DNA of 64,000 bases, taken from contig WSUB01000071.1 in NCBI GenBank assembly GCA_019633425.1, positions 1 through 64,000 of the forward strand, written 5' to 3'. This DNA is from Tulasnella sp. 424 (taxonomy: Eukaryota; Basidiomycota; Agaricomycetes; Cantharellales; Tulasnellaceae). Under the pieces are notes generated by a model that saw only the letters and a list, made by a program, of their open reading frames with translations, did not search any database and was not told the origin of the DNA. The position numbers and the translations under genes were made by a program. Within the stretch, counting starts at the first letter, position 1. Every line of letters begins with the position of its first letter. This document shows positions 25,956 to 52,208 of this stretch, one piece after another.

Positions 25956-26472
25956 GATGTTTAACATTCCCTCTAGTCTGCTATATCATTGTCTGCTCTA
26001 TCTGGCTTTAGTGATGCGCAATTCACTTGAAGTCACGAATGGAAATTGGTCCGTTCGCGGAGCTCTTGGAAACCACGAGAATATTCAGAAGGACGGAGCG
26101 AGATGTGCACATTTGGGAACACGGGGTATCCCCTGTTGGTAGCAGCGCCATTTTAGCGGGCCGCTTAGAGTACCCAACATTCTGCATGGTCTACGGTCCT
26201 CGAGAGTGTTGATCCATCTCCCCGAAAGTCTCCGTATCCCCGGTCCAGTCGCACAAGCCCGAGACTTCGACAAATGCTTTGATCTGGCTCGGTAGCTCAA
26301 CGTTATAGGCACACAATGGCCCATACTGAAGATCATCTTTGATAATAAGATAAAATAGCTCCGTGCTATCTCCAGTCTATCCAGGTCGCTAGCGTTTCCG
26401 CCACATGATGAACTCTAGTCGATTGAACGCACATCGAGCCGACCCCGGTCGTACCCAGTTTACAGAGGGTGC
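25956..26472. other. Intergenic 3' of F-box gene 3
   Basis: No similarity to the flanks of the other two F-box genes was seen by eye and no gene is supported; the duplication unit seems replaced or diverged here. Confidence 0.5.
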
Positions 26473-29733: not shown

Positions 29734-32367
29734 TCAATAATCGACTCTCTCGTTGACTTGAATCTCCAACCTGAGACTCGAGGTTCTCAGGTGAGGTATG
29801 CGTCGTTGGAGCTTCTTCACGTCACAAAGCAGAGGCAGCGCATGCTGAGTCCCGAGTCGTTTTGGCTTGGCGAATTTTCTACTCTCCCAGACAATGGCCG
29901 CCTTCTGAGTCTTCCCCAGCTTGCGCCGGTTCCACCTAACGCCTTGATTATCTTGAAGCTCCGAATCAAGCACCAGGGAAGCCTCAAAGTGCAATGCCGC
30001 CTCGTCGTATTTTTCCTGCTCTTCGAGGATGAGCGCTTTGTCTGCGAGGCATCTCGACATCTCGGACTTGTCCTCTAGCCTGCGGTACTCGGCAATGGCT
30101 ACATCGTACCAATACAGGGCGTCCGCGGTTGCGCCATGGTCCTTTTTCACTGCTGCGAGGAGAGACGCGGTATATGGGAGCTCCCAGTCGCCGTGTGAGA
30201 TTTCGGCGTAGATGGAGAAGGACTCTTCCAAGGCTGCGGCAGCCTCGTCGAGTCGCCCCTGATCTCTGAGGCAGTTTGCTAACACCCATAAGCCCTGAGC
30301 CAACCTCCAAGGGGCGTTGGAGCGCCGAGAGACGGCGGTCGATTCTCGAGCGAGCTCCTCTGCTTCGGCGCCGCGACCTTGTGCCCTCCGTATGTTGCCG
30401 AGGCACAGTAAGGCTCTCCCGACGCCGTGCTCCCATCCGATTCTCCCCGCAAGGTCGCGTACTTCCAAGTAAATGGAAGCTGCTCCATCTAGGTCGTCCT
30501 GGTCGTGGGTCACGGCGCCGAGCACGACGCGTGCCTTAGCTTCCCCAAGTTTATCGCCGCACCGAGCCGCAATCGTCACAGCCTCTTCCAGAATGAGCAA
30601 TGCTTTTGGACGATCGCCTTTCCTTCTGTGGAGTTCTCCTATCCTTTCTAGGCACCCCACGATGCCCACGTCGTTCGTGTGCGCACGGAAGATTTCAAGG
30701 GCTTCGTTCAAAAATGCCATCGCGTCCTCGTTTTTGGATTGAAGGCAGAGGGAACTCCCGATCAGGGATAGGGTTTCGGCCGTCCCGAGGGGATCACTCA
30801 GGGTCCTGAGTTTTTCGAGAGCGGCTGTCGCGGCCTTCAGGGCGTTGACAGGGTAGGAATGTCGGTACGATGCGGCGGCTTGTTTGCGGAGGACGCTCGC
30901 AATCCCTCTGTGATTTCCTTCTTCCTCGTACATCAATAGAGCTTGCTCCATGTACGCGAGACCCTCCTCGTAATTGCCCTTCCAACTCTCGAGATCGCCC
31001 AGATTTTCGAGTAGTGCAGCAGAACGGGTCTCATTAGAGAGAGTTGGGGGACATCGAGGCTATTGAGTGTGAGATTTAGATGAGGGTCTTCGTCAACTGA
31101 ACGTAACAGCAGCGTACCAGGGATGTGACAGTTGTCAGACACATGTTGCTGGTGGGTCGCTGTTCCGGTACAGCCGCCCAGCATCTCGTCATCAACTCCC
31201 ACAGCTGGAGACAGTCAGTGAGGCGGAATTCCCCGTCGGCGTGAGGGCGGGGCCCTTCGAATATCTTGAGTATGATGGCATAGTCTGCGAGAGTTCCCTC
31301 GTAGGGTAACTCCCCGGTCATAATCTGGTCATGAATTCTGAATGAGTGCGGAGCTCAATGCGATAGGAAGAGCGCTTACTAACCTCCCATACTAGCCATG
31401 CCCAAGCATACACGTCGCTACTAGGAGTTCTTGGGTGGCCGTTGATCAATTCTGGACTACACCAACGTATAGATCCTTTGAAACCCGTGGACGTCTCCAA
31501 TCTTCCGAAGCCACTGTCTTCGTGAAGTCGGGCTAGGCCAAAGTCACATAAAACCGCTCTGAATTTGCTGTTGACGAGGACATTTGCCTTCACAAGCAAA
31601 GGTATTTAGATTATGGACTTGGGACAGAAGTTCGGTGCTCTTACGGATTTGACGTCTCCATGGCAGACTGGAGGATTAAGTTGATGAAGGAATACCAAAG
31701 CGTCGATTGTATCATAAATCTGAAATAGGTTTGTTGGTGAGACCCTGCAGTAGACGCTCCATGGCCAGACGCGACTCACCAACGATAGTTTTTCGGGCAC
31801 TTCAAGGTTGTGCCCGCGTATGAACTCGCTGACATTCCCATACGGTTCCCAAGGTGAGAGAAGCCAGGCTTCTGAGAGCTCTTGGTTGGCGTAAAAGCCG
31901 AGAAACCTGGTCATGCCTCGGTGGGCTTCAAGACTCGACCAGACCAACATCTCCTTCGTGAAAGCCTAGGGGGGATGGCATTCGGCCCGTCTTCGCAGGA
32001 GCAGTGAAAAAATGAGCGCACCCTCTTCACGTCAGCTACGTTATCTACAGCTGATATTTTGATCTGCTTGACAGCCACGACTTGAGGAGGGCCATATCGG
32101 CGTGAAGCAACCCATGTGGGAAGGTAGGCGGAAGGATGAAGGCGAGCCTTGCGTACGATTCCGTAACCCCCAGCGCGCTTATGGTCATCGGGGAGGAAAA
32201 CGATCCTTCCACGGCTGACTAGATACTTTTCCAGCGCTTGGTACGCTTCGTCCTGGATAGCGAGCGATTGTCATTTTAAAAATTGAGAACTGGACCGATA
32301 TCGTCGTGTTACCCACCACGGCCTGTCCTCTAGCAAGTTTCCTGTCGGGGTCTTCAACGGTTGTCAT
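29734..32367 (-). CDS. K1: TKL-like non-RD kinase with C-terminal TPRs
   Basis: Seven exons: 32367-32317, 32252-32022, 31965-31780, 31719-31645, 31587-31384, 31324-31118 and 31059-29734; 759 aa, every intron in phase 0. Kinase (about residues 25-280): Gly loop AGGYGIV, ATP lysine in VVAVKQIKI, catalytic loop VCHGDVKSANVLVN, DFG in LCDFGLARL, RWCSPEL in place of APE, DVYAWAWLVWE and the closing RPT motif. The Arg before the catalytic Asp is Gly, so it is a non-RD kinase; Lys, Asp and Asn needed for catalysis remain. Residues 320-700 hold about nine TPRs of about 40 aa, MalT/kinesin-light-chain-like. The tail ends with LLCDVKKLQRRIPHL. No signal peptide or membrane helix, so a cytosolic signalling protein is likely; partner unknown. 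Confidence 0.88.
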
Positions 32368-32881
32368 TATTCGCGAGCGCGATTCTCGCTAAGAAATATT
32401 GAGCTACTGGCGGAGGGTGTGGTAAGGTGGTCGTCGTTGCAGTTAGGTGTTCTCGAGATTCAGGGAAGCGTTCTCAGGGACAGGCGCGTCGCCTTCCCGG
32501 TTGCCGACCCGATTGCTAATTGAAGCAGCGCAACGGCACCCACAAGTGCGAGGCTCCGGGATCGAATATCTAGTAGTGTTCGCGATGGAGAGAATGTTAG
32601 AATCGAATAACTGTGGTATCACAGTTATTGCCTCGCAGTTCTTCGTAGACTGAAGCGGTGTCGATGTCATGTACGGCCTAGGACACGAACCTCCGCTTTC
32701 GGCACGTTACGAGTGTAGGCGTCGATCAACCAGGCGACCCGCCCTCGCTATTTTCCACTTCACTCGCGCATTTCCTGTCGGTGGACTCTTTTATCATTAT
32801 ACGGGTATATAAATAGCCAATACAATGCGGGATGTGAAAGCATATGTGCAGAGATTCTACCACTCCCTCCCGTCAAGGATC
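32368..32881. other. Intergenic K1-K2
   Basis: Contains a TATATAAAT stretch at 32806-32814, about 440 bases before the K1 start, which may belong to K1's promoter or K2's 3' end. Nothing else supported. Confidence 0.45.
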
Positions 32882-35505
32882 CTATTTCCCACCGATCCGA
32901 ATGTTTAACTTGAGGCCGGGGCTCCTGAGCTGCGGGAGACGTCGCTGAAGTCTGTTCACATCGCAGAGTAGCGACGATACTTGCTGTCTTGGCTTGGAGT
33001 ACTTTCGACTTTCCCACTTTATGACAGTCTTGGGGATGGCACTCAGCTTCGCCCGGTTCCGAGAAACATTGTAGGAATATTCGAGCTCCAGATCGAGTAC
33101 CAAGGAGGCCTCGAAGTGCAACGCTGCCTCGTCATACTCTTCCGCTTCCATGAGGATATAGGCTTTTGACCGCAAGCAACGCGCAACATTATACGTGCTT
33201 TGGAGTTTACGATGTTGGGCGATGGCCGCGTCGTACCAAAGTAGCGAATCCCTTTTTGACCCCAGGTCGCGCTTGAGGTCGGCGACAAGCATTGCGGACT
33301 GGGCTGATTCGGGAATGAGTGAAACTTCTTGGAACGCTGAGAATGATTCTTCCATAGGTTTGAGAGCGTCTTCGACCCGGTTCTGTGAACGGAGGCAATG
33401 TCCCAGTGAATCAAGCGCCTGAGCCAGCCTCCAGGGCGCTTTGATTCTCCGAGCCACTGTGGCAGACTCTTGCAGTAACTGCTCCGCTTCCTGCATGTTA
33501 TCCTCCCTCATCTTGAGTACGCCGAGATCCCACAAAGCGGTACAAACTCCGTACTCCCATCCGATCCTCCGTGACATATCACATGCCTCGGTGAGGATCG
33601 AAGTTGCCCTGGCAAGGTCACCATCCCCCCAATGTACTACCCCAAGAATAATGAGTGCTTTGGCTTCTCCGAGCTTGTCTCCACAGCGAGAAGCGATCCC
33701 TACGGCCTCATTCAAAGTAGCGAGGGCCTGCCGATTGCTCCATTGCCGCCGATGAATCTCGCCAATCCTCTCGAGGCATTGTACGATGCCAACGTCGTTT
33801 CCGTGGGTTCGGAAAATGGTGAGGGCTTGGTCCAGTAACGGTGCTGCCTCCGTTTCCTTTGACTGCACCGTCAGGGCGCTGCCCATCAAGTACAGAGATT
33901 CGGCCGTTCCCAGAGGATCACCGAGTACTTTGAACTTCTCCAGAGCCGCGGAAGCTGCGTCAAGCGTTTTGACGTGGTAGGAATGGCGGTAGGATATAGA
34001 GGCTTGTTTTCGGAGAACGCCGGCAATCCCTCGATTGTTCCCTTCTTGCTCGTACAACCCTAATGCTTGTTCCAGGAACGCGAGACCCTCCTCGTAGTTG
34101 CCTTTCCAGCTCTCCAGGTCGCCGAGATTTTCTAATAGCTCAGCTGAGCGGGTATGGTGATGAGCATCTCGTGGGGTCGGGGGGCAGCGAGGCTGTCAAT
34201 AAGGCAGTGGGGTCAGACCGCGGGGAGTAATGCGCAAAGAACTCGACTTACGAGAAAATTGACCGTGGTCCGACACATGCCACTTGTCGGTCGCTGCAGC
34301 GGCTCAATCACCCAGCATCTGGTCATCAACTCCCAGACCTGGAGACAGTCACTGAGACGAGATTCTCCGTTAACTTGGGGACGCGGACTTTCGAAGATCT
34401 GGCGCATGATAACATAGTCGGCGCCGGCTCCTTCGTACGGCAGTTCTCCGGTCATTATCTAGCAAGCCAGGACTCTCAGGACGAAAGCGGGGGGGGAAAA
34501 TCGAGAAACGGGTTCCTAACCTCCCAAACTAGCCAGGCCCATGCGTATACGTCGCTGTTTGGAGTTCGCGGTTGGCCGTTGAGAAGCTCTGGACTGCACC
34601 AACGGATGGACCCCTTGAAGCCGGTCGACGTCTCCAGCCTCCCGAAACCGCTGTCCTCGTAAAGTCGTGCTAGCCCGAAGTCACAGAGAACTGCTCGATA
34701 CTTGGCATTCACAAGAACGTTTGCCTTCAAGACGAATGTGATCAGCTTGAGCATATACAACACGAGAGATCTCACTCACGGATTTAATGTCCCCATGGCA
34801 CACCGGTGGATTGAGTTGGTGAAGAAATGTCAACGCATCTATCGTGTCATAAACCTGGCGTAAAGCCCCTTGTAAGCTTAGTAAATAGATATCTATATGA
34901 GACTCACCAGCGACAGCTTTTCCGGCACTTCGAGCTCCCGCCCGTGGATGAATTCGCTCACATTCCCATACGGCTCCCATGGCGAGATTAACCACGCCTC
35001 CGTGTGCCCGAAGTCGGCACAGAATCCGGTAAACTTGGCGAGACCTGGGTGTGTTTCAAGACCAGACCAGACCAACATCTCCTTCGTAAATGCCTACAGC
35101 AGCAACACGAGCTGAATCAACATTCCCGAGACGTGATATAAATAGCAAGCTCTCACCCTTTTCAATTCAGAGACATTATCTATTGCGGATATTTTGATTT
35201 GCTTGACGGCGACAACTCGAGGAGGGCCATATAGACGGGAACAGAGCCACGCGGGAAGGTAGGCGGAAGCATGCAGGTGGGCTGGTCGTACAATTCCGTA
35301 ACCGCCAGCGCGCTTATGGCCATCGTCAGGGAGAAAAACAACCCTTCGACGGTCTACTTGATATTTCTCAAGCGCTTGGTACGCCTCATCCTGGACGGAA
35401 GGGTGCATACCGCATGAGATATTGTGAGTTAGACTGACGGCGTTTTGCACCTACTACTGCCTGCCCTCTTGCTCGTCTCCTTTCGGTGTCTTCGATGCTC
35501 GACAT
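32882..35505 (-). CDS. K2: TKL-like non-RD kinase with C-terminal TPRs
   Basis: Exons 35505-35455, 35390-35157, 35093-34908, 34854-34780, 34724-34521, 34458-34252 and 34192-32882; 755 aa. Exon 2 is 234 nt, one codon longer than in K1 (DDGHKRAGGYGIV). Catalytic loop VCHGDIKS, CDFGLARLYEDSG and RWCSPELLNG are intact. The TPR exon is open throughout and ends with LLCDVNRLQRRLPQL. No inactivating change seen. The acceptor of intron 5 follows a C-rich tract (eight C in a row), unlike the other copies. Confidence 0.88.
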
Positions 35506-36111
35506 TTGCTGGTGGGCGCGAATCTAGTAGCTGAGCGGGAAGTAACTGGTTTCCCGATAGGGCTGGGCGGTTGCAGGAAAGCCTGGAAAGTGATGGATGT
35601 TATCGCGCAACCTTCAGCGGGCGCCTACGCTTCCCACGCGCGGACCCTAGACGTTCATAGATTGCACTTTCGCACTACGGTAAATTCTACCATTGAACGA
35701 GCAACGCTGGGTGCATCTAGAACCACTCGCGATCTCTTTAGAGTCAAAATTTCACGAGAGGCTGGGTTAGCTGAGGACTGTGAGGAGGTCAATGTAATTA
35801 CACGTTAGGTTGGGAAAGAATCTCCCGAAGAACCAGCGCCCAAGACCACCCTAAGCTACTTCAGCCCCCAGCTCGCCCTGCGGCATCACCGACGCTCCAA
35901 GATATAACGACCCAGTTCGAACTGTGACTGCAGTCCACCAAAGTCCGCTTAAGCGAGGCGTGCCACGTTCAGCTGTGTTCTTCATTTAAGCTAAGCATAT
36001 TGCATATACAGTACATACATATAGGCAGCGGGTATATGGGGAGTTCGTGTCGGGGGGGGGGGGGGTAGCTACTATAACCACACGTATGTCCTTTAAGTCC
36101 TTCCTTCGCGA
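35506..36111. other. Intergenic K2-K3
   Basis: Promoter side of K2 and 3' side of K3. Holds a 14-nt G run at 36052-36065 (antisense C run in K3's transcript tail) and AT-rich TATA-like stretches near 35995-36040. No gene. Confidence 0.5.
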
Positions 36112-38758
36112 TCAGTCGATAGTCAGTCGGGAGTCTCGCTCCTGGGAAGCCGGACTTTCAAATTTGGGACTGGGGGTCATGAATTGGGGAAGGCGTCGCT
36201 GGAGTTTTTTCAGGTCACATAGTAGGCGCGACTCCTGCTGAGCCCCGATAGGTCCCGACCACGAGTTCCTCCGACTCTCCCATTTAATGGCGGTCCTCGG
36301 AATAAAGCTGAGTCTTGACCGGTACCAGCTAACATAGTCGTGCGATCCAATCTCCTGGCTCAGGACCAAGGAAGCCTCCAAATGCAGTGCAGCTTCATCA
36401 TACTGCCCCAATTCCTCCAAGGCCCCAGCCCTTCTGGCCAAGCATTCCGAAACACGGGACTTGTTCCCGGATTTTCGGTGTTCGGCAATCGTCACTGTCC
36501 ACCAGTACAGCGCACTTCGCAGCGAACCCTGCTGTTTCTTCACGTCAGCGAGGAGATTGGCACTGAAGGCTGCGTCTTTGCTAAGCGAGATATCTTGAAG
36601 GACGGAACAGGATTCATCCAGAACTTGTGCTGCTTCATCAAGTTTCTCTTGTCGCATAAGGCATAGACCCAATTCTTGGAGAGCCTGGCCCAGTCTCCAA
36701 GGAAATTTACACCGTCGTGCCACCGCAATCGACTCTTGGAGGAGCTCTCCCGCTTCCTGGTAGCTCTGCTGGGCCATCTTGGATCTACCAAGATCCATTA
36801 GAGTGGTCGAGACACCGTAGTCCCATCCAATGCTCCGTGCCATCTCGTAAGCCTTCGACAGAGTAGAAGTGCCTTTCTCCAAGTCGCCGAGCTCCCACTG
36901 CATAAGTCCAAGGATAACCAGTGCCTTGGCCTCCCCTAGCTTGTAACCACATCGAGAAGCGATCCCTACAGCTTCCTCCAAAGTGATCAAAGCCTGCGAG
37001 TACGGTCCGCTCCTCCTTTGAATCTCGCCAAGTCTCTCGAGGCACTGCACGATCCCAACATCGTTGCTGTGGGTTCGATAAATTGCGAGGGCTTGGTTCA
37101 GGAACGGTGTCGCCGCCTCCTCCTTAGATTGTACTGTCAGGGCGCTGCCGATCAAGTACATGGATTCGGCCGTTCCTAGGGGATCGCTGAGTGCTTTGAA
37201 TTTCTCCAACGCGGCCGAAGCTGCGTCAAGGGCTTTGACGTGATAGGAGTGCCGATAGGATATGGAGGCTTGCTTTCGCAGCACGCTTGCGACACCTCGG
37301 TTGTTGCCGTTTTGCTCGTACAGCTTCAATGCTTGTTCCAGGAACACGAGGCCCTCCTCGTAGTTGCCTTTCCAGCTCTCCAAATCGCCGAGATTTTCTA
37401 ATAGCTCAGCAGAGCGGGTGTGGTGATGGGCATCTCGAGGGGTGGGAGGGCAGCGGGGCTGTCGGCGCAAGTCAGTGGTCGAGCGGCGGAAAGTGGTGCG
37501 CAAAAGAGAGAGCTTACGAGAAACTTGATCGTGGTCCGACACATGCCACTTGTTGGTCTCTGCAGCGGCTCGACTACCCAGCATCTGGTCATCAACTCCC
37601 ACACCTGGAGGCAATCACCGAGGCGAGATTCACCATCAACCTGAGGACGGGGGCTTTCGAAGATCTTGCGAATGATAACGTAGTCCGCTAGGGCGTCTCC
37701 ATAGGGAAGTTGGCCGGTCATTATCTTGGAGACATATTCATGTTACTATCGCGTTCAATGGTCGATTAAATCGTGTACTAACCTCCCAGACTAACCAGGC
37801 CCAGGCGTATACGTCGCTGCTTGGGGTCCGGGGCTGGCCGTCGAGCAGCTCCGGACTGCACCACCGAATGGAACCCTTGAATCCCGTTGTTGTTTCCAAT
37901 CTCCCAAAGCCGCTATCTTCGTAAAGCCGGGCTAATCCAAAGTCGCATAGCACGGCTCTGAACTGAGCGTTGACGAGGACGTTTGCCTTGACGAACCAGA
38001 GTGATCAGCTCCTTGACGCCCGGCAGTGTTAGCCTTCCGTCTTACCGATTTGATGTCTCCGTGACATATTGGCGGATCGAGCTGATGAAGGAAAGCTAAG
38101 GCATCGATTGTGTCGTATACCTAAGTAGTATATTTATAAGTTTTGGATAGAGGTGTTCGGGGAAACCACTTACAAGCGATAGTTTCTCAGGCACCTCCAG
38201 CTCGTAACGACTAAGAAATTCTGATATGCATCCATGTGGCTCCCATGGAGAGAGGAACCAGGCCTCCGATCGTTCAAAGTCCGCATAGAAGCCAAGAAAT
38301 TTGGCGATGCCTGGGTGCGCTTCGAGACTCGACCACACCAGCAACTCCTTGGTGAATGCCTGCCCAAGTTGGATGAGTCGAATCGCACATCAGATTGAAT
38401 TCGTATGCTCACTGCTTTCAAGCTCAACGGGTCATCAGCAACGGACATCCGCATTTGTTTGACGGCCACCACTTGTGGCGGGCCATACTGACGCGATGCG
38501 AGCCATGTGGGGAGGTAAGCCGAGCGGTGAAGCTCAGCCCGCCGAACGATGCCATAACCCCCTGCACGCTTACGCCCGTCTTTGACGAAAACAACCCTTT
38601 GACTGTCCACATGGTATTTACTCAATTGCTGGTATGCCGCTTCCTATGAGGAATATGTCCGTTAGATTGAATATTCTTGCCTGGACTGGTATGCCGTCTA
38701 AACGCACCACCGCTTCTTCCCTTGCCCATCTCCTCGCTTCCTTCTCCGAATTTGACAT
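36112..38758 (-). CDS. K3: TKL-like non-RD kinase with C-terminal TPRs
   Basis: Exons 38758-38708, 38643-38413, 38359-38174, 38120-38046, 37986-37783, 37724-37518 and 37458-36112; 766 aa. The first exon (MSNSEKEARRWAREEAV) and the end of exon 2 (VADDPLSLKA) differ most from the other copies. Catalytic loop ICHGDIKS, CDFGLARLYEDSG and RWCSPELLDG are present. The activation segment has ETTTGF where others have ETSTGF. TPR exon intact; tail LLCDLKKLQRRLPQF. Looks functional. Confidence 0.87.
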
Positions 38759-39447
38759 CCTTCTGAGCGCCTGGCCCTCGATACCAAAGTAAACTGCCCT
38801 CACACGGTGGTTGTTGAGGAATTGCTGCGATACTGGTCGTTGGACGATGTGAACAAGCGCTTCCCAGGTGCCAAGATGTTCTCAGGCCGTCCCTTACCAC
38901 GGAATTAACCTCGGCAAGGATGATCATATGAGAGATTCAATTCCCAGCTATAATCATAGCATTGTATTTGCCTTTGCGACCGCCGACAGATGCTACATAG
39001 GGTCAAGCAACTGGACGGTATTAACTTCTGCATCATCAGTTGTGTCTCTTGGAGTATGGTGGCGGTGATCGAGCAGTGCTAGCATTCCATTCTCCACTGG
39101 ATCATACTCCGTGCGCAGTATTCATGCGACGTGCTTGCCTTTTGGGGGGCTCGATTTAGGATGTTTCGAAAAGTAAAACGGCGTTTTTGATAGTTCTCCG
39201 ATCCATCGAAATTTAGAAATAGTCTTTTGATCCAGAAACCTGACATAGTTTAGGGATTGCCTGCACTACCGTCATCAATGCGTAAAATGAATCGTAGAAC
39301 AAACGTCGTCGAGACGAGCACCCCGGGCGAGCGATAGGATACATATGTAAGAATGTGGCTAGCAAGGACTACAAATTTCGCGACACAACCGGAGATTGAT
39401 ACAACAGCGAGGATGAAATACATCGGCCTTCGTTGGCCTCGACCCAA
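38759..39447. other. Intergenic K3-K4
   Basis: No supported gene or repeat; short frames on both strands only. Confidence 0.5.
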
Positions 39448-42089
39448 TCAAGAACCAACTCCTCTGACTAGTCTGACCGGAGATTTGAGATTTGGCGTCG
39501 CTAGCTGGGGTATGCGGAGTTGAAGTTTCTTCACGTCGCACAACAAAGACGTCGTCCGGCGGGAATGGACCTTGGCTAACGCGAGTCTTTCCCGTCTTCT
39601 GACTTCTCACTTGATGACCGTCTTGGGAACTTCGGCGAGTTTCCTCCGATTCCAATCCGCGTCGTTGCCTTCCCCGCGCTCCTGATCAATTATCATGGAG
39701 GCTTCAAAGTGCAAAGCCCCCTCGTCATATCGCCCTATTTTCGTCAGAAAATCCGCTTTTTCTCCTAGGTATTTTGAAAGGTACCATGTCTCCTGGTGCT
39801 TGCGGCATTCAGTAATTGTTCTATCGTACCAAAAAATGGCACCCTCTGGGTCACCATGGGTCGCTTTCGTGTCCGCAAGGTAAGCTGCGGTGGTTGCGAA
39901 TTCCGAGTCAAACGTGCGTGCGATGTCTTGGTAGACCGAGCACGATTCCTCCAGGACCGAAATGGCTTCTTGCAGCCTCTCCTGTTCTCGGAGGCACGTT
40001 CCCAGTCGGAATAGCGCCTGCGCCAGCCTCCAATTTGCGTCGCTGCGTCGAGTAACACGAACTGACTCACGAAGAAGCTCTTCTGCTTCTGTGTAGAGAG
40101 CCTGAGCCTGCTTCATGGATCCCAACCGGCAAAGGGCGGTGCCCAGGCCTTGATCCCATCCGATGTTCTGCGCGATGTCACGAGCCTTCGATATAGTTGA
40201 AATTGCTTTGGGTAGATCATCGAGGTCCCACTGGGTGACTCCAAGGATTAAAAGTGCGTCCGCTTCTCGTAGCCGGGCTCCACAGCGAGACGCAATGTCG
40301 ACGGCCTCCTCCAAAGTCGACATTGCCTCCGTCCCTCTGTTCTTCCTCCGATGAAGTTCTCCCAGCCTTTGGAGGCATTGTACGACACCGATATTATTCC
40401 CTTTGGCACGGAAGATGTTCAAACTTTCCTGGAGGTGATGCAACGACTCTTCCTCCTTGTCGACTTCCAAGAGTGAGGCTCCCATCCAGAATGAGGCAGT
40501 AGCTTCCCCGATGGAATAGTTTAAGCGTCTGAACTTCTCGATGGCGGCGGAAGAGGCGATCAAGGCTTTGGCGTAGTCGGAACGACGGGCGGCTACGGCC
40601 GCTTGCTGGCGAAGAACGCTGGCGATGCCTCTGTCGTTTGCTTCTTCCTCGTACAGATACAGAGCTTGTTCGAGGTGGCCAGCTGATACCTTATAGTTTC
40701 CCTTCCAGCTCTCGAGCTCGGCGAGGGTCTCCAGGAGAGCGGGTGAACGTGCTTGGGGATCTGCTGATTGGGGGGCTGGGGGACAGTGAGGCTACAAATA
40801 GATTGCTTTAGTTGCGATAGGTATCGCTGCGGATTGTTCAAGGAAACATACAAGCTCTGTGAGGGTTGTTAAACACATGGTGCTCGTTGGTCGCTGCAGC
40901 GGCTCGACCTCCCAACATCTCGTCATCAAATCCCATAGCTGAAGGCAGTCGCTGAGGCGAGATTCCCCGTTAAGCTGTGGGCGGAGAGTCTCGAATATCT
41001 TGCGGATAATAACATATTCCGCCCCAGCTCCTTCGTAGGGAAGCTCGCCAGTCATTATCTAACAAATGAGGACCATCAGTAAGAAGTCAAATGGAGAAAC
41101 ACTTGACAAACCTCCCACACTAGCCAAGCCCAAGCGTACACGTCACTGCTTGCAGTCCTTGGCTTACCGTCGAGCAGCTCCGGGCTACACCAACGGATGG
41201 ATCCCTTAAATCCCGTCGACGTCTCGAGCCTACCAAACCCACTGTCTTCATACAACCGTGCTAGCCCAAAGTCACAGAGAAGAGCTCTGCATTCCGAGTT
41301 GACGAGAACGTTCGCCTTCGGGCATATGAACCTGGTCAGATTGACGGGAAACACCCGTAGAATTATGACTTACGGATTTGATGTCTCCGTGGCACACTGG
41401 TGGATTCAGTTAGTGGAGAAATGCCAACGCGTCAATGGTATCATAAGCCTGGTCCAACGCAAACTGTGAACTGGGTTACTTGCAAAGGGATCCGACCGCG
41501 GCTCACTAGGGACAGCTTTTCTGGCACTTCAAGGGCGCCGCGCCGATGGATGAATTCGCTCACGTTCCCATATGCCTCCCATGGTGATATAAGCCAAGCC
41601 TCCGAGCGCCCGAAGTCAGCGCAGAAGCCGAGGAACCTGGCGACACCTGGATGCCCTTCGAGACGAGACCAAATCAAGAGTTCCTTCGTAAAGGCCTAAA
41701 ATCCCCGACCGAGTTAGCAGTCTCCGATATGAGAAACATGGCCGACGGACCCTTTTCAAATCAGATGCGTCATGCATGGAAGATAGTTTGATTTCCTTGA
41801 CGGCTACAACTAGAGGAGGGCCATGTTGACGTGAAGCGAGCCATGTGGGAAGGTAGGCGGAAGCATGAAGGTGAGCCCGTCGTACAATCCCGTATCCCCC
41901 TGCGCGTTTCTGATCGTTGACAGCAAAAACGATTCTTGGGTGGTTAATTTGGTACTTCTCGAGCGCCTGGTACGCCTCATCCTGTAATCCATGTTGTATG
42001 AGAAATTATGAATTGGACTGATGCTGTCGTGTACCTACCACTGCCTGAGCCCTAGACAGTCTTCGTTCCATATCTTCAACGGCTGACAT
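39448..42089 (-). pseudogene. K4: kinase-TPR gene with two nonsense codons
   Basis: Exons 42089-42039, 41981-41751, 41695-41507, 41448-41374, 41315-41112, 41058-40852 and 40791 to the end. Two stops break it. TAA at 41412-41410 replaces the Gln of the FLHQLNPP motif just before the catalytic loop (a CAA/CAG to TAA change). TGA at 39609-39607 replaces the Trp of the conserved IKWE motif. After the second stop the frame still codes for LLCDVKKLQLRIPQL and ends at 39448, so the change is recent. Splice sites are all intact and exon 3 has one extra codon (189 nt). A protein truncated in the kinase is the likely product unless the first stop is a sequencing error. The TPR part is closest to K7. 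Confidence 0.85.
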
Positions 42090-42928
42090 AACCTGGGGCT
42101 CTTGTGACTTATAGTAGCTGAATGAAAGCTGTGGCGGGCTATTGCAACATGACAGTGGTGGTTGTTGTCGGCGTCGTTTCTCCTGGACCGCGCCTCCATC
42201 GTTCCCAGGCATGACCCTATCTCAGGCACGTCGCCTCTTCATGGCCAAAGCACGAATTAATATTATTACACAGCATAATGTGAGCCCCGCCCACCTTGTG
42301 CCTGTTGAGTATATAGGCAAATATTCTACGCTATCCTCAAACTCTGAACGCTTTTGGGCGGATCCGGAGCACCAAAGGAGGACATGATCCATCATAAAAG
42401 CGTACACCAGTTCCCACTACAGTAATTCGAACAACGGTATATTATCTCTCGGTTACCCGCCCTCTACTCTACCCCATATGCTCCCTCATGAAGACGTCTG
42501 GCTTTCAGGCGCGTTAAATCATAAGGGCAGCCAGTTTTCCTCTACCTCTGCAAATGCGTGGGTGTGCACTCTCGTACCAAACAATGTGAAAGGGATATCT
42601 CTATGACGGAGCAGAATTCTTAAATGATACCAGCATGGGGCTGAAAGATATCATACATCAAGACTGGGGTTGAACAAAATTCGGGCTGCAAAACACACTT
42701 GACTGATCTATTACGGGCGTATTCTGCCCTATTCGCTGATCACTTTGGTCTGCAACTGACTATCGAGTATTGATGGGCAAGTTTCTATAAACGATTTCGA
42801 CCGAATTTGTCGCAGCATACTAAATCTCCCCATTATTCTGCCTGGACTAATAGGTACGATATACATGCAATGTGTACAGCAGGCAATTAGGCGAGGCGTG
42901 TGACCCCAGACCTGACGCGTCGAAGCTA
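42090..42928. other. Intergenic K4-K5
   Basis: A TATATA at 42310-42315 lies about 220 bases before the K4 start and may be its TATA box. No gene seen. Confidence 0.45.
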
Positions 42929-45565
42929 TCAAGAATCATCTGTCGAGCCGAGCCGAACGGTCAGCTTGAGACTGGGTGTTGAAAGTTGAGGTAGGCGTCG
43001 CTGGAGTCTTTTTATATCGCATAGTAAGGGAGAGGTCTGCTGGCCCCCGACCGATATTATTTGCGAATGTCTCCTGCTCTCCCACTTGATCATCGTTTTC
43101 GGGATTTTGCTTAGCTTCTTTCTGTTCCCAGCACGGTTATACGAGTTTCGGAGCTCCCATTCAAGCACTAGGGACGCCTCGTAGTGTAGTGCAGCCTCGT
43201 CGCTCTGATGCGCTTCCTCTAGTACCACGACTTTGCGCGCCAAGCATGCGGAAAGGTTTTTCTGGTCTTGAAGCTTGCGATATTCAGCAATTGCCGCATC
43301 GTACCAGAACAGCGAGCTCCTCGTTGCCTTCTGCCTTTTTTTCACTCCGGCTAAGGCAAGGGCGCTCGATGCAGCGCCCCTGCCGAGTGAGATGCCTTGA
43401 TACACGGAATACGCCTCTTTATAAGCGTTGGCTGCTTCACCAAGTCTCCCTTGGCTATTGAGGCATGCACCCGATATCGAAAGCGCCTGAGCCAACCTCC
43501 AAGGGAATTTACACCGCCGAGCGACCCCCATCGATTCATCAAGCACCTCCAACGCTTCTTGAAGGCGTCCCTGGTCCTTTTTGATTCTACCGATGTGCGC
43601 TGTAGAGGTGCAGACTCCATGTTCCCATCCAATTCTCCGCGCCATTTCGCTTGCAACTCGAAGTGTCGAAACGCCTCTCTCCAGGTTGCCCAGCGAGGCA
43701 TGCGTAACTCCAAGAATGATGTGTATTTTGGCCTCTCCAAGCTTGTCCCCACACCGGGAGGCTATTCCTACAGCCTCTTCTGCCGTCCCCAAAGCTTGCC
43801 GAGCGTTGCCTTTCCTCCTCTGAACCTCTCCAAGCCTCTCGAGGCATTGAACGATCCCAACATCGTTGCCATGAGCCCGAAAGATTGCGAGGGCTTCGTC
43901 CAAGAAAGGGGTCGCCTCCGCTTCTTTGGATTGCATTGTCAGGGCACTACCGATCAAGAAGAGAGCTTCGGCTGTTCCAAGGTAGTCTCCAATTAATTTG
44001 AACCTTTCCAAAGCAGCTGAAGCAGCGGCAAGAGTTTTCAGATGGTAGGAATGACGATAAGATATGGTGGCTTGTTTGCGGAGAACGCTGGCGATTCCCC
44101 GGATATTCCCCTCTTGCTCGTACAGCCCCAATGCTTGTTCCAAGTACTCAAGGCCCTCCTCGTAGTTGCCTCTCCAGCTCTCAAGATCGCCAAGGTTCTC
44201 CAATAGGGCAGCAGAGCGTGCTTGCTGATGTGCAACTTGAGGAGTTGGAGGGCAGCGAGGCTGTCGATAAAGATTTGGTAAGCATTTGCGACGGCAAACA
44301 GAAGCTAAACTTTATCGTACAAGAAATGTGACAGTGGTTCGGCACATGGCGCTCGTTGGGCGTTGCAGCGGCTCAGCTGCCCAGCATCTGATCATCAACT
44401 CCCACACCTGGAGGCAGTCACTGAGACGAGCTTCTCCGTCAACTTGGGGGCGAGGACTCTCAAAGATCCTGCGGATGATGACATAGTCCGCCCCAGCTCC
44501 TTCGTACGGAAGCTCTCTAGTCATTATCTAACGAAGCAGGATGGTCAGCGTGAATGTCAAACGGAGGAAGAGTCGACTAACCTCCCAAACTAACCAGGCC
44601 CAAGCATACACGTCGCTGTTCGGAGTTCGAGGTTGACCGTCCAGCAGTTCCGGGCTGCACCAGCGGATAGATCCCTTAAACCCGGACGTCGTCTCCAACC
44701 TCCCAAAGCCACTATCTTCGTAAAGACGTGCAAGCCCAAAGTCGCAGAGGATAGCTCTATATTCGGCATTGACAAGAACGTTCGCCTGTGGTCATGAAGA
44801 CGGTCAGGTTGAGGCGATACAATGCGAGAACTGCCACTTACAGATTTAATGTCGCCGTGGCAGACTGGAGGATTGAGCTGGTGAAGGAACGTCAACGCGT
44901 CGATTGTATCGTAAACCTGGCGTAGCTCTTTTCGTTAGTGGTGTCCCTTGGGATCAACATGGGACTTCTCACCAGAGACAGCTTTTCAGGCACTTCGAGC
45001 TCGCGTCCGTGGATGAACTCGCTAACATTACCATATGGCTCCCATGGCGAGATTAACCATGCCTCCGTGTGCCCGAAATCGGCGCAGAAACCAATAAATT
45101 TGGCGATCCCTGGGTGCGCTTCGAGACCAGACCAGACCAACATCTCTTTCGTGAAGGCCTACGAAGCAACCCCAGCATAGTTAACACCCTAAGATGTGAG
45201 ATACATCACAGGCACACTCACCCTCTTCATCTCAGCCACATTATCTATGGCTGTAATTTTGATTTGCTTGACGGCTACGACTTGAGGAGGGCCATATTGA
45301 TGCGAGGCCAACCAGGCGGGGAGGTAAGCCGAATGATGAAGCTCGGCTTGTCGAACAATCCCGTAACCCCCTGTGCGCTTATGGTCGTCACGAATAAAAA
45401 CAATTCTTCTGCTGTCGACTTCATACTTCTTCAATGCCTGGTACACCTCGTCCTAGATGGGATGTGCGAATTATGTGAGAAGTTCCGATTTGGACTGGAG
45501 CTATGTGCACCTACCACTGCTTGTCCGCGAGCCAGTCTCCTTTCCACGTCTCCGATTGTTGACAT
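42929..45565 (-). CDS. K5: TKL-like non-RD kinase with C-terminal TPRs
   Basis: Exons 45565-45515, 45452-45222, 45158-44973, 44916-44842, 44785-44582, 44527-44321 and 44260-42929; 761 aa. Catalytic loop VCHGDIKS and CDFGLARLYEDSG are intact; the activation segment reads ETTSGFKGSIRW. Exon 6 starts IMTRELPYEG where the others have IMTGELPYEG (or GQ, GEQ). By eye this exon differs from K2 at about 10 of 69 residues. Tail LLCDIKRLQRRLPQL. No disabling change seen. Confidence 0.88.
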
Positions 45566-45950
45566 CGTTCACGAATGGGATGATAGTAGCTGACCGGATC
45601 TTGTTGAACGACCCGGGACACGGGAGATTCGTCGAGCAAGCCTCAGAAAGGGATGGTTGTTATCACGCAGAGAGGATGGACACGGCGTTCTCAGGCACGA
45701 CCCCTATAGCTCTGTATTCAATCGCCTCGTCAGACTGTTCACTTCAAGTGGAGACTAGTTCCACGTGCAACCTCATTAATATGGAACATTTTATGTGGCT
45801 ATATATCCGCTCTATAGACTCTGGGATTATCGACAAACGGAATGGTCCGCCCGCTGCTTGGCCGGTAGGGGGTTGGGATGAACCGCAATTTCGCTGTCCC
45901 CAATCATCGCAGGCGAAATGCCTATTGGTAAGCTAAGCTTGGCCAATGAA
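45566..45950. other. Intergenic K5-K6
   Basis: A TATATAT at 45800-45806 lies about 235 bases before the K5 start, a spacing close to that in front of K4. No gene. Confidence 0.45.
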
Positions 45951-48678
45951 TTAAGGGGCTATGAAAGTATTCAAAAAATGAGTAACTTGGTTATGGCGGG
46001 CCTTGGTATCAAGTTCCTCAAGTTCAACCTTCCACTCACAAGGAACATAGGGTTTGTCTCTTTCACCGATTCGAATATCCAACTTGAGGCTTGGGCTTGT
46101 GAGCTGAGGTATACGTCGTTGAATCTTCTTCACGTCGCATAGTAGAGGCAGCATCTGCTGGACTTCGGCTGTTCTGACCTGGTGTGGTTTGCAACTTGCC
46201 CAGCTTATCGAGGTCTTCGGGATCAGGCTAAGCTGTTTCTGATTCCAAGGAATGTCGTAGTAATACTTGAGTTCCATATCAAGCACCACGGACGCCTCGA
46301 AGTACAGCACTGCCTCATCATACTGCTCTATTTCATTGAGGATCTTCGCTTTCGCCCCAAAGGATGCAGAAAGCTGATACCTGTTGCGGAGCCTACGATA
46401 CTGCGCAATCGCCACGTCGTACCAATGCAACGCGTTCCTTTTCGCGCCCTGGACATGCTTTAGGTCAGCGAGGAGGGTGGCGACCTGCGCAAAGTCGTTG
46501 GGGAGTGAGACATCCAGGTACGCTGAACACGACTCTTCGAGAGCTTTGATAGCTTCTTCGATGCGTTGTTGGGAGCGAAGGCATTGCCCCAGGGCACCAA
46601 GCACCTGAGCGAGCCTCCAAGGAGCTTTAATCCTCCGAGCTATCGAAATAGACTCTCGCAACACCTCCTCTGCCTCTGACCATCTACGCTCCTTCATCTG
46701 AAGCGTACCGAGGTCCCACAGCGCGGTACAAACTCCATACTCCCATCCGATCCTTCGTGACGTGTCACACGCTTCTGAGAGAATAGAAGCTGCTTTCTCG
46801 AGATCGTCTCTATCCTGGTGCGTGGCCGCAATAATAATGAGCGCCTTGACCTCACCAAGCCTGTCACCGCATCGACATGCAACTTGGACGGCCTCCTCCA
46901 GAGTAATCAAGGCCTGACGAGATTGACCGTTCCTCCTCTGAATTTCGCCGAGCCGTTCGAGGCACTGCACAACTCCGACGTCACTTCCACGATTTCGAAA
47001 AATTGCAAGGGCTTCCTCCAGGAAGAATGCAGCCTCTAACTCCTGAGACTGCACGGTGAGGGCACTGCCAATCAAATATAAGGATTCGGCAGCCCCAAGA
47101 GGATCCCCGATTTTTTTGAACTTTTTAAAGGCAGCGGAGGCGGCCTTGAGGGTCTGGACGTGGTAGGAGTGGCGATAGGATATAGAGGCTTGTTTTTGTA
47201 GTACGCTCGCAATTCCTCGGTCGTCCCCTTCTTGCTCGTACAATCGTAATGCTTGTTCCAAGTGTGCAAGGCCGTCGTCGTAGTTTCCTTTCCAGCTCTC
47301 GAGGTCACCCAAGTTCTCCAATAGCGCGGCAGATCGGGCTTGGTGATCAATGCATCCGGGTGTAGGGGGACAGCGAGGCTAGTAATGAAAGCCATTAAGG
47401 GCAAAACTACCGGTGGTGAAGACTAAATGAGACGTACGAGAAATGTAACTGTAGTCCGACACATGCTACTTGTCGGTCGCTGCCCAGGCTCGCCTGTCCA
47501 GCATCTTGATATCAACTCCCACACCTGCAGACAGTCACTGAGGCGAGATTCACCGTCGACCTGGGGTCGAGGACTTTCAAAGATCTTGCGGATGATGACA
47601 TAGTCGGGCTCAGCTCCCTCATAGGGCTGTTCGCCGGTCATGATCTAATCCATTACATAACACTCAATATACGCTTAGAGTTCAGCAAGGCAGCTAACTT
47701 ACCTCCCACACTAGCCAGGCCCAAGCGTATACATCACTTCTTGGGGTTCGCGGTTGGCCTTCAAGCAGTTCTGGACTACACCATCGGATAGATCCCTTGA
47801 ATCCGTCTGATGTTTCTAATCTTCCAAAGCCACTATCTTCGTAGAGCCGCGCCAAACCAAAATCGCATAATACGGCCCTACATTTGGCATTGACGAGGAC
47901 GTTCGCCTTTCAAAACAAACGGAATCAGCCGATTGAACGGCCTAGCCAGAGGATCATCTTACCGACTTGATATCCCCGTGACAAATTGGTGGGTTAGCTT
48001 GATGAAGGAAGGTTAATGCATCAACAGTATCATGGACCTAGAACAATGGGCTTTATGAGCTTCTGTGCGTAGTCCGCCAACCAATGCTTACGAGGGACAG
48101 CTTTTCAGGCACTTCGAGCTTGCGGCCTCGGGTAAATTCGCTTATGTTCCCGTAAGGCTCCCAGGGAGAGATTAACCAAGCCTCCGAGTGGGTGAAGTCT
48201 GCGCAGAAGCCGAGAAATTGCGCAATCCTGGATGTCCCTCAGTACCAGACCAGACTAACAGCTCTTTGGTGAACGCCTATTATTAAGGGGCCGAGTTAAC
48301 AACTTTAGACGTGCGGTGAAAAGGTAAACTCACCCTTTTTACGTCCGATACGTTATCAATGGCCGATATTTTTATTTGCTTGACAGCTACGACTTGAGGA
48401 GGACCATACCGCCGTGAAGCGAGCCACACCGGAAGGTAGGGGGAAGGATGGAGGTGCGCCTGACGGACAATACCGTAACCTCCGGCTCGCTTACAGTCGT
48501 CGGTAACAAAAACGATTCTTCGACGGTTCACCTGATACCTCTCCAGAGCATGATACGCCTCGTCCTAAAGCAAAGGGATGTCTCGCATGAGAAATTGTGA
48601 GCTTGACTGAAGTGATCATACACTCACTACTGCGTGTCTTCTCGCGAGTTTCCGTTCCGTCGCTTCGATGGTAGACAT
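45951..48678 (-). pseudogene. K6: kinase-TPR gene with a 1-bp frameshift
   Basis: Exons 48678-48628, 48564-48334, 48276-48092, 48037-47963, 47906-47703, 47644-47438 and 47378-45951. Exon 3 is 185 nt; five of the other six copies have 186. One C (plus strand) is missing near 48227: before it the frame reads EGHPG, after it the conserved GFCADF..SEAWLISPWEPYGN is in another frame, leading to early stops. The other exons are clean (loop ICHGDIKS, CDFGLARLYEDSG). With that base the protein would be about 793 aa. The TPR exon is the longest of the array: after the LLCDVKKIQRRIPQL tail it carries about 50 further residues. A homopolymer sequencing error is the main alternative. Confidence 0.8.
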
Positions 48679-49538
48679 AGTTCCTAATCGCAATTTCAGA
48701 GCTGAGTAACGATCTGCTAAAATGCTATCAGCGCAGGTAGATCGTCGTGGTAAAGATGTGGTTCGTGGCTGCTTGTTGGAAGTCACAGCGCAATTAGTTA
48801 TGCCGGCGGGCCCTGACACCCTTGTTCCAAAACTTTACGCGGTGTCCCCTAACCTTACGATACATTTGCGGGCCCGTGTACACACAAGGGAAGGTCCGCA
48901 ATATCCGGAATCCGAACATGCGGTGTATGTATGGGAAATGACCATCCATGTCCAGGGCATGTTCGAATTTGGAAAACGTACTTAGTTTTCTCATCTACAA
49001 TCAAGCCGATTGGCTTATTTCAGCTGACAATGCTCGGGTTATGTTTTGGCTTTGGAAACGGCCCGAACATAGCCCGCTCATTCTCACACGTTGCCGCCGT
49101 GTTCTGAGCCGGAACATCATTACTCTCCCTTTGTACATGTGCATGTTGATGAATCGCCTTACAATAAAACCGATTTGTTTAAAAAGGTTTATTTACTTCA
49201 CCGGAATGTTAACATTGCATGAAAGTTCAAGTGGGTCCGGAATATATAACCCAAATGGAGGTCGTGCAAGTCACAGGGATGCGAGTCGTGGCCCGCGCAG
49301 AGGAAAACGCAAACGGTGTACGGTGTCTCTTCCGAGCCGCAAGCCAACCCTCCGTTCCATGAAGCCTTATCCCACGATAACGTCGGAGAACGAATGTTAT
49401 GGGACTTGAGCGAACATGAAGAAACAACAAATGAGGAATAACAAGGTCTAGCTACCCATACACATAGGACGTCACGGTTAGACGCGGAAGTGAGCGCATG
49501 CGATGAAGTCCCTAGATCCTAATTTGACCACGACACGA
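48679..49538. other. Intergenic K6-K7
   Basis: Longest spacer in the array, 860 bases. An ATATATA stretch lies at 49242-49248. No gene or repeat supported. Confidence 0.5.
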
Positions 49539-52208
49539 TTAGGAGTCGCCACCGTTGCTGATCTGAACAGTTAATTTGAGGTTTGCTGTCGTTAATTGAG
49601 GTACTCGGCGCTGAAGCTTCTTCATGTCGCACGAGATGGACGCCGTTCGAGCCGAGTGGGTTTTGGCGGACCGGAGTCTTGCTTGCCTTCGGACGTCCCA
49701 CCTAATGACCGTCTTGGGAATGTTGCCGAGTCGGGACCGTCTCCAATGGACGTAATAGGCATCCATCCCAAGCTCCTGAGCGAGTACCAGGGAGGCCTCC
49801 AAGTGCAGTGCTCCCTCATCAAATCGCCCCACCTCCACTAGGCATTCCCCTTTACCCTCCAAGTATTTCGAAACCTCGAACTTGTCCGGTCCCTTGCGTG
49901 ATTCGGCAATGGCTTTGTCGTACCAAAAGAGGGCACCTTCCGTATCTCCTTGGCTAGCCTTCAAACCTGCCAGATAGGCAGCGCCATCAGCTAGGGCTGA
50001 GCTATAGTCAAGCGCGAGGCCCTCGTAAGCCGTGCAAGAATCCTCCAGGGTTGAAATAGCTTCTTGGGGCATGCCTTGTGACCAAAGACACCTTCCGAGG
50101 TAGTAAAGAGCCTGGCCCAGTCTCCACTTGGCATCGCTGCGTCGAGCAACCCGGACCGACTCACGGAGAAGCCCCTCCGCCTCCGGGTAGATACCCTCAT
50201 CGAACTTGATAGCCCCTATTCGGCAAAGGGCAGTGGTTACGCCATGCTCCCATCCAATGTCTCGCGCGATATTAAGGGCCTTCGAGTAGTTAGAGATCGC
50301 GCTGGTATTATCGGAGAGCCCGAAATAATACGTGACTCCAAGGATGGTGAGGGCCTTGGCCTCTCCGAGCCGGTCTCCGCAGCGAGAAGCGATGTCAACA
50401 GCTTCTTCCAGAGCGGCCAACGCCTCGCTAGTTCGGCCTCCCCTCCGATAAGCTTCGCCTAATCTCTCGAGGCAATTGATGACGCCCACGGTGTTCCCCT
50501 CGGCTCTGGAGATTTCCAAGCCTTCCAGGAGATTAGGCAACGCAGCCTGGTTCTTGCTTGCCAATAGGAGGGCGGATCCCATCCAGTATAAGGCATCAGC
50601 AGCGCCACTGGCGTCGTTCAGGCTTCTAAACTTCTCCAGAGCGGCGGAAGCAGCGTTCAGAGCTTTGACGTGATCGGAATCGTAGTGCGCTGCAGCGGCT
50701 TGTTTGCGAAGAACGCCGGCGACACCCTTGTCGTTGCCTTCTTCTTCGTAAAGGAGCAGAGCCTGCTCAAGGTAGGAAAACCCCTCCTTGCGGTTGCCTT
50801 TCCAACTCTCCAGCTCGCCAAGGTTCTCCAGTAGAGCAGCCGAGCGAGTACGAGGGTCGTTGGTTGCAGATGAAGGAGGGCAGTGAGGCTACATGGTGAA
50901 TTTAGTGAGCGTAGGCGTCGATAACGTTGCATCGACGAAACGCACGAGATACGCGATGGTTGTTTTACACATGGCGCTTGTTGGCCGTTGCAGTGGCGCA
51001 GCGACCCAGCATCTTGTCATCAATTCCCAGACTTGAAGACAGTCGCTGAGGCGAGACTCGCCGTCGACCTGGGGACGAGGACTCTCGAAAATCTTGCGGA
51101 TGATAATGTAGTCTGCCCCGGCCCCTTCGTAGGGAAGCTCGCCAGTCATTATCTAATAAACAAGGACTCAGCATGCAGTCTAAGAATGGAAGAACAGTTG
51201 ACTGACCTCCCATACGAGCCACGCCCACGCGTAGACATCACTGTTCGGCGTTCGTGGGTGCCCCTCAAGAAGTTCCGGACTGCACCAACGGATAGACCCC
51301 TTAAATCCGGTCGAGGTCTCCAGCCTCCCAAAGCCGTTGTCTTCAAAGAGCCTCGCCAAACCAAAGTCGCAAAGAACAGCTCTGTGTTGGGAGTTGACAA
51401 GAACGTTTGCCTTCGGGTTTTCGTAAATCATCAGGACACTGGTATACAACAAGATCAGGGAACAAACACGCCTACCGATTTGATATCTCCATGACACACC
51501 GGCGGGTTCGATTGGTGAAGAAATGTCAACGCGTCTATCGTGTCGTAGACCTACACAAGGCATTGAGTCTTAGTAAACTGCGCACGTCGCTATTGAAGTG
51601 ACACTCACCAAAGAAAGCTTCTCAGGTACTTCGAGCTGCCGTCCACGGATGAAGTCACTGACGTTCCCATACGGCTCCCATGGAGAGATTAGCCAAGCCT
51701 CCGAGTGCTTGAAGTTGGTACAAAACCCGAGGAATTTAGCAACACCAGGATGCCCTTCAACGCCGGACCAAACTAGCATCTCCTTGGTAAACACCTACCA
51801 CGGTCCCCCTCCCGAATTAGCACCTCACCGACATTAGAGAAATGACGAACCCACCCGTTTTAACTCATGTAAGCTGTATATGGATGACATTTTGATCTCC
51901 TTGACGGCTACGACTTGAGGAGCGCCATACCGACGCGAGGCGAACCATGTGGGGATGTAGGCAGACGCGTGGAGGTGGGCTTGTCGTACGACACCGTAAC
52001 CCCCTGCACGCTTGTGTTCTTCATCTACGAAAACGATTCTTCGCTGGTCGACTTGATACTTTTCCAGTGCCTGGTACGCCTCGTCCTGAATATGGAAAGT
52101 GCCAGGGGTGTGTGAGGAATTCTGAAATGGACTGGACTGAAGCGCAGCTACACCCACCACTGCCTGTCCTCTGGCCAGTCTCTTTTCTGCATCTTCGACG
52201 GTTGACAT
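49539..52208 (-). CDS. K7: TKL-like non-RD kinase with C-terminal TPRs
   Basis: Exons 52208-52158, 52085-51855, 51794-51609, 51550-51476, 51410-51207, 51152-50946 and 50888-49539; 767 aa. Catalytic loop VCHGDIKS, CDFGLARLFEDNG (the others mostly have YEDSG) and RWCSPELLEG. The TPR half shares features with K4 only (FWYDKAIAESRK, GRFDEGALHLEAS, RWDVRR). Tail motif ISCDMKKLQRRVPQL. Intron 1 (72 nt) is a stop-free multiple of three, so retaining it would insert 24 residues before the kinase. Intact; first transcribed gene at the right edge of the array. Confidence 0.88.

Follow-up and report, generated by a model that had tools for sequence, protein, structure and literature searches.

What does a row of genes that each join a protein kinase directly to a block of TPRs do in a fungus? 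Seven such genes lie at 29734 to 52208 of the window, the 64,000-nucleotide stretch analyzed here, in Tulasnella sp. 424, a member of an orchid-mycorrhizal genus. The window is from contig C418 (GenBank WSUB01000071.1) of a 46.8-Mb genome in 448 contigs. A first-pass annotation had suggested a role in recognition or innate immunity for these genes, which are named K1 to K7 below. Judged from sequence, they are part of an expanded, largely intact family with the evolutionary signature of binding receptors, namely, a conserved output and a diversifying input groove. A sensing function is probable, and an immune function is possible.

Direct repeats in the window formed seven copies, 3.1 to 3.5 kb apart, occupying 29.7 to 52.2 kb on the minus strand. 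Exon models were set by hand for all seven copies from the minus-strand translation and the splice sites, and the interval from the K1 stop codon to the K7 ATG is exactly 29734 to 52208. The repeats and the exon models agree with the earlier description of seven head-to-tail genes on one strand. Exons 1 to 6 measure 51, 231, 186, 75, 204, and 207 nucleotides, with one codon more in exon 2 of K2 and in exon 3 of K4, and exon 7 measures 1,311 to 1,350 nucleotides in the intact copies. All introns are phase 0, GT-AG, and 53 to 72 nucleotides long, and spliced alignment of K3 recovered K5 introns identical to those of the hand model. As had been claimed, five copies are open: K1 (759 residues), K2 (755), K3 (766), K5 (761), and K7 (767). 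Exon 4 of K4 contains an in-frame TAA, and exon 7 of this copy is 42 to 55 codons shorter than those of the intact copies. Exon 3 of K6 is one base short (185 versus 186 nucleotides), which causes a frameshift. A sequencing error could account for either lesion.

Two trivial explanations were rejected. A chance or frame artifact does not fit seven copies with identical exon structure. Separate kinase and TPR genes were rejected at the sequence level: exon 7 follows a phase-0 intron of 57 to 60 nucleotides in all seven copies, and its first Met is at codon 37 in K1 and at codons 100 to 228 in the other six, so that exon 7 does not appear to be a gene of its own.

The Pfam scan covered K1 and K5, two of the five intact proteins, with matches listed to an E value of ≤1. 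A PK_Tyr_Ser-Thr domain (PF07714 type) was found at residues 47 to 311 (E values of 4e-33 and 3e-33), and TPR_12 and its relatives matched the C-terminal repeats; no NACHT, NB-ARC, or GoLoco match was listed for either protein. The AlphaFold model of the T. calospora orthologue of K2 contains nine helix pairs of 40 residues; its kinase half is poor (predicted local distance difference test score often <50; 23 aligned sequences), and nothing was drawn from it. The annotated architecture, a TKL-like kinase joined directly to about nine TPRs, is therefore borne out, with no NACHT or NB-ARC domain detected between them, in one coding frame, with exactly nine repeats in the model. The repeats resemble one another little (mean identity, 0.19; highest, 0.38), but the nine-repeat block could be aligned in all 27 genes of the family with clean models, with 0 to 7 gap positions and a constant repeat number. 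In these 27 genes, the catalytic Lys and Glu were kept in every case, and the HxD..N and DFG motifs were each kept in 26. The closest solved chains by sequence were CTR1, followed by EGFR, RIPK4, and TAK1. By these features, the kinase is of the TKL type and is predicted to be catalytic. The non-RD HGD motif was considered as an immune sign and rejected, because all but one of the 12 other kinase loci read in the same genome are also non-RD. After the TPRs, K5 (residues 713 to 761) and its homologues have a partly conserved tail, LLCD..LQRRLPQL..LKL.

The array itself was confirmed, but it is only part of a family. A search of the same genome with K5 gave exon matches in ten contigs. Besides K1 to K7, 32 loci were modelled, bringing the total to 39; two of the 32 (C68_294 and C60_48) are remnants in which no TPR was matched. 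All but three of the 39 loci sit in groups of at least two, and the largest group has eight members.

Selection was analyzed in 27 of the 39 loci. The 12 dropped loci (K4, K6, and ten others) had a frameshift, a stop codon, an extra exon, or a short model, and in some of them, for example the C402 group, the fault may lie in the model and not in the gene. The ratio of nonsynonymous to synonymous substitution rates (dN/dS) in the 30 closest of 351 pairs was 0.09 to 0.22 for the kinase and 0.27 to 0.65 for the TPR block. Over all 351 pairs, the median dS was 3.2 in the TPR block and beyond estimation in the kinase. The groove was represented by TPR-motif positions 2, 5, 9, 12, and 13, taken from the literature on TPRs; these five positions were fixed in the script before the first look at the data. 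A seven-position inner-face set (-2, 2, 5, 6, 9, 12, and 13) was defined after the ratios of nonsynonymous to synonymous differences (pN/pS) had been seen, and we therefore rely on the five preset positions.

Four young clusters were tested: C400 (seven genes), C5 (four genes), C68 (three genes), and C418b (three genes). In this order, the pN/pS was 1.03, 0.80, 0.75, and 0.35 at groove positions, 0.17, 0.37, 0.15, and 0.27 at packing positions, and 0.19, 0.16, 0.14, and 0.11 in the kinase. The groove enrichment had a P value of 5e-5 by permutation over motif positions. Comparison of the codon site models M1a and M2a for the TPR block gave twice the log-likelihood difference (2dL) as 60.2 in C400 (P = 8e-14) and 19.4 in C5 (P = 6e-5), while the maxima in 20 null simulations per cluster were 13.3 and 7.6, respectively. 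No positive selection was detected by the same comparison in the kinases of C400 and C5 (P = 0.71 and 1). Sites with a posterior of >0.5 fell on the preset positions in 11 of 24 cases in C400 (3.0 expected) and in 10 of 17 cases in C5 (2.1 expected), and seven selected sites were common to the two clusters (P = 3e-5). When each half of the TPR block was given its own tree, the P values were 4e-4 and 2e-10 in C400 and 0.027 and 7e-4 in C5. Along the block, the kinase-adjacent repeats 1 and 2 were conserved (0.20 and 0.35), and repeats 3 to 9 were more variable (0.42 to 0.60).

The proposed recognition role thus gains support from two of the four clusters, in which positive selection on the TPRs is enriched at the groove and absent from the kinase, which is under purifying selection. 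Immunity as such we infer, since groove diversification would fit any fast-changing partner. With moderate confidence, we read these proteins as receptor-like kinases that lack a NOD, each copy having a private input and all sharing one output. The kinase-TPR proteins would be cytosolic, and the distal groove of each copy would bind a peptide or an extended segment of its own fast-changing partner, either non-self or modified self. The conserved proximal repeats may relay binding to the kinase, either by lifting inhibition or through dimerization, and all copies would phosphorylate one common downstream target. New specificities would arise by tandem birth-and-death and by exchange between copies.

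Several points weigh against this interpretation. The concave side was defined from general TPR-motif positions and not from coordinates, and the code for the M1a and M2a models was home-made. The three-gene clusters gave no significant positive selection on the TPRs (P = 0.33 for C68 and 0.41 for C418b), and C418b had no groove excess over its whole TPR block (0.35 versus 0.36). One of the 20 null simulations in each of the two significant clusters passed the 5% chi-square line. The trees of the TPR halves differ, and copies therefore probably exchange segments, which can inflate codon tests; the nearest kinase neighbor also differs from the nearest TPR neighbor in 16 of the 27 genes. The five intact genes of the window were included in no codon site-model test, because no window pair was among the 30 closest and dS was too high. 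At the amino acid level, their groove excess was modest (0.558 versus 0.422; P = 0.0075), and exposed-type positions of helix B varied nearly as much as the groove (0.491). Finally, insulation among self partners could explain the diversification of the groove equally well.

This last point leads to the strongest rival, that the proteins are ordinary intracellular kinases serving as insulated signaling scaffolds, whose duplicated TPR grooves each fit their own self partner and prevent cross talk, so that the selection records specialization. Groove-enriched positive selection and a conserved kinase fit this explanation, and the matched LGN structures contain self partners, as far as their titles tell. 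The plant kinase-TPR protein BSK3 is likewise described as a scaffold (PMC6336344). The genomic setting fits it less well, since 39 loci in tandem groups of up to eight, with several broken copies, look more like the birth-and-death of sensors. A groove excess is also missing from the sister kinase-TPR family, of which seven proteins were listed. In this second type, amino acid variation was 0.211 at the groove versus 0.243 overall (P = 0.70; five proteins), a tandem trio gave a P value of 0.43, and no excess was found under either repeat register (P = 0.95 and 0.70). The pattern in the first type is therefore not due to the architecture alone. We consider insulated scaffolds unlikely.

The family was next placed among its relatives. 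The database searches returned the best 120 matches per query among candidates sharing words with it, and distant fungal members may therefore have been missed. Among the best 120 of 764 matches to K5, the named top matches were all from Tulasnella. The first named fungus outside this genus was Schizopora, with a kinase 32% identical over 27% of K5, and the remaining named lower matches were bacterial. Among the matches listed, the second Tulasnella kinase-TPR type as the query and a profile search gave the same Tulasnella-first picture, and Rhizoctonia and Lipomyces proteins, listed with kinase domains only, appeared far down one list. A search of a plasmid collection yielded nothing closer than distant TPR proteins of bacteria or archaea. 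The family member C68_298 matches FRC05_004021 of Tulasnella sp. 425 at every one of 678 compared residues (269 in the kinase, 360 in the TPRs, and 49 in the tail) and is 97.7% identical to it over the entire alignment. In the kinase tree, K2 groups with M407DRAFT_28867 (P0002) of T. calospora (100/98), and K3 groups with M407DRAFT_28866 (P0003) (100/97). These partners are numbered consecutively and lie on contigs of equal length, so that the array, at least in part, probably predates the split from T. calospora. K2 and P0002 are 94% identical in the kinase, 75% in the TPRs, 64% in the groove, and 76% in the rest of the TPRs; the corresponding values for K3 and P0003 are 85, 66, 62, and 67%.

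The restriction of all named close relatives among the matches listed to an orchid-mycorrhizal genus would also suit sensors at the host interface, whose grooves track fast-changing proteins of orchids or other hosts in the service of mycorrhiza rather than immunity. A "TPR-like protein" transcript, which may or may not belong to the K family, is upregulated in Tulasnella sp. SV6 near its host (PMC11965168). If the proteins are intracellular, however, host molecules would have to get into the hypha, and we regard this explanation as improbable. A broader form of the receptor-like kinase reading appeals to us as a conjecture at slightly less than even chances: a genus-wide, birth-and-death set of NOD-less intracellular receptor kinases that would perceive non-self (rival mycelia, bacteria, viruses, or host proteins) through the diversifying TPR groove and signal through one conserved kinase output, as a fungal counterpart of a receptor-kinase repertoire.

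The family had also been likened to NLR-type receptors without the switch domain. Fungal NLR/STAND proteins (effector, NACHT or NB-ARC, and WD40, ANK, or TPR repeats; PMC4986451, PMC9815663, and PMC12258605) share with it an N-terminal signaling domain, C-terminal superhelical repeats, and multigene families. Dyrka and colleagues reported positive selection on the concave side of the TPRs of Podospora NLRs (PMC4986451), as seen here in C400 and C5 but not significantly in C68 and C418b. Fungal NLRs, however, are defined by a NACHT or NB-ARC domain. About a fifth of their repeats are highly alike, with TPRs mostly of 42 residues (PMC4986451), and repeat number varies in Podospora, whereas the K-family repeats have 40 residues, are little alike, and always number nine.

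The likeness could reflect descent, with kinase-NACHT-TPR receptors having degenerated by loss of NACHT. In this genome, 91 NACHT matches exceeded the cutoff and two weak NB-ARC matches were found; it also has kinase-NACHT genes, of which four were read (L030, L031, L032, and L033, all with HADxKPEN kinases). Among the 12 N-terminal classes of fungal NLRs is protein kinase (PMC4986451). In the kinase tree (69 rows, several of them long branches with a tool warning on their placement), the K family formed one clade (100/99). Its sister was the second Tulasnella kinase-TPR type (100/100 for both together), P0061 and P0062 came next (96/91), and Tulasnella kinase-WD40 kinases branched further out. 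The kinase-NACHT kinases of this genome, two of which (L032 and L033) are poorly modelled in the N-terminal part, fell outside the clade of both kinase-TPR types (100/100) and outside that clade with P0061 and P0062 (96/91); their exclusion from the wider group with kinase-WD40 proteins is weaker (88/93, not starred). The tree thus does not support an origin of the family through simple loss of the switch from the kinase-NACHT receptors sampled, and the low likeness of the repeats (see above) also speaks against it. We consider it very improbable; what remains of the comparison with NLRs is the likeness. The position of the kinase-WD40 proteins implies that related kinases joined WD40 repeats too. 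P0069, P0070, P0052, and P0043 of Tulasnella have a kinase and WD40 repeats in their records with no NACHT listed, the same layout with a different set of repeats. P0124 of Tulasnella sp. 424 is listed with a kinase, WD40 repeats, and a glycosyltransferase family 90 domain and is possibly a fused gene model.

Other known proteins resemble the K family in part. According to a 2025 review, direct fusions of proteases to WD40, TPR, or ANK repeats occur in fungal gasdermin control (PMC12881547), a precedent for an effector enzyme placed straight onto a repeat platform without a NOD; there the enzyme is a protease, while the K family has a kinase, is expanded, and has so far been named in Tulasnella alone. 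Plant brassinosteroid-signaling kinases (BSK; RLCK-XII), some of which are tied to immunity (PMC5478731), also have an N-terminal kinase and C-terminal TPRs. BSK3, however, has three TPRs, is N-myristoylated at Gly2, and had no detectable kinase activity in the reported assay (PMC6336344), whereas K1, K2, K3, K5, and K7 start with MT or MS, lack Gly2, have nine 40-residue TPRs, and belong to tandem families. The second Tulasnella type (P0044, P0046, P0050, P0051, and P0121) has the same domain order but differs in that seven repeats were located, the tail is not common to it, and kinase and TPRs diverge similarly (0.21 and 0.24). The TPR superhelix is of the LGN/Pins type, although identity is 16 to 19% and LGN/Pins proteins have no kinase and a different biology. 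Bacterial Ser/Thr kinase-TPR proteins, the next named matches after Tulasnella among those listed, combine the same two domains, but identity is low and mostly over part of the length. The excerpt of a paper on fungal relatives of tyrosine kinases (PMC3937382) does not contain the term TPR. No description of the Tulasnella kinase-TPR family was found in the one open library searched, in keeping with its designation as a candidate undescribed system.

Fungi are reported to lack LRR receptor kinases (PMC2939053), and the stimuli that activate fungal cell-death sensors are described as a major open question (PMC12881547). A kinase-output family with selected sites on its likely sensing surface offers a concrete handle for sensor tests. 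It also suggests that effector-plus-repeat proteins lacking a NOD can expand in the manner of NLRs.

The individual genes, all on the minus strand, are as follows. K1 (29734 to 32367) has exons at 32367-32317, 32252-32022, 31965-31780, 31719-31645, 31587-31384, 31324-31118, and 31059-29734; exons 1 to 6 (31118 to 32367) encode an N-terminal stretch and the TKL-type kinase, and exon 7 (29734 to 31059) encodes the TPRs and tail, as supported by Pfam. In the other intact genes, exons 1 to 6 likewise encode the kinase part, placed in the kinase tree for K2, K3, and K7, and exon 7 encodes nine TPRs and a tail. K2 (32882 to 35505; kinase part, 34252 to 35505; exon 7, 32882 to 34192) has exons at 35505-35455, 35390-35157, 35093-34908, 34854-34780, 34724-34521, 34458-34252, and 34192-32882. 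K3 (36112 to 38758; kinase part, 37518 to 38758; exon 7, 36112 to 37458) has exons at 38758-38708, 38643-38413, 38359-38174, 38120-38046, 37986-37783, 37724-37518, and 37458-36112. The broken K4 (39607 to 42089) has exons at 42089-42039, 41981-41751, 41695-41507, 41448-41374, 41315-41112, 41058-40852, and 40791-39607, with the TAA at 41412-41410 and an early end of exon 7. K5 (42929 to 45565), the numbering reference, has exons at 45565-45515, 45452-45222, 45158-44973, 44916-44842, 44785-44582, 44527-44321, and 44260-42929, supported by Pfam and the spliced aligner. Its kinase part (44321 to 45565) contains VAVK with Lys79, the alpha-C Glu99, HGDIKSAN from H176, DFG from D196, and SPE from S225, and its exon 7 (42929 to 44260) encodes the TPRs at residues 331 to 690, delimited with the AlphaFold model of the K2 orthologue. 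The broken K6 (45951 to 48678) has exons at 48678-48628, 48564-48334, 48276-48092 (the 185-nucleotide exon 3), 48037-47963, 47906-47703, 47644-47438, and 47378-45951. K7 (49539 to 52208; kinase part, 50946 to 52208; exon 7, 49539 to 50888) has exons at 52208-52158, 52085-51855, 51794-51609, 51550-51476, 51410-51207, 51152-50946, and 50888-49539.

A search for HeLo domains, as a sign of an executioner near the array, gave no match, but the controls also gave none. Elsewhere in the window, at least two tandem genes, similar by eye, lie at 67 to 9617 on the plus strand, and Pfam assigned the uncharacterized family DUF6535 (PF20153) to 7383 to 9617. Three tandem genes, also similar by eye, lie at 21302 to 28068 on the minus strand; both of those scanned by Pfam have an F-box-like domain, and the third (21302 to 23272), outside the scan, contains a short run of N. 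A probable M28 peptidase exon was found by Pfam at 20306 to 20776 on the plus strand. Open frames with Sacsin domains (PF25794), the second just below the Pfam cutoff, run from 61836 to 63999 on the plus strand, to the end of the window.

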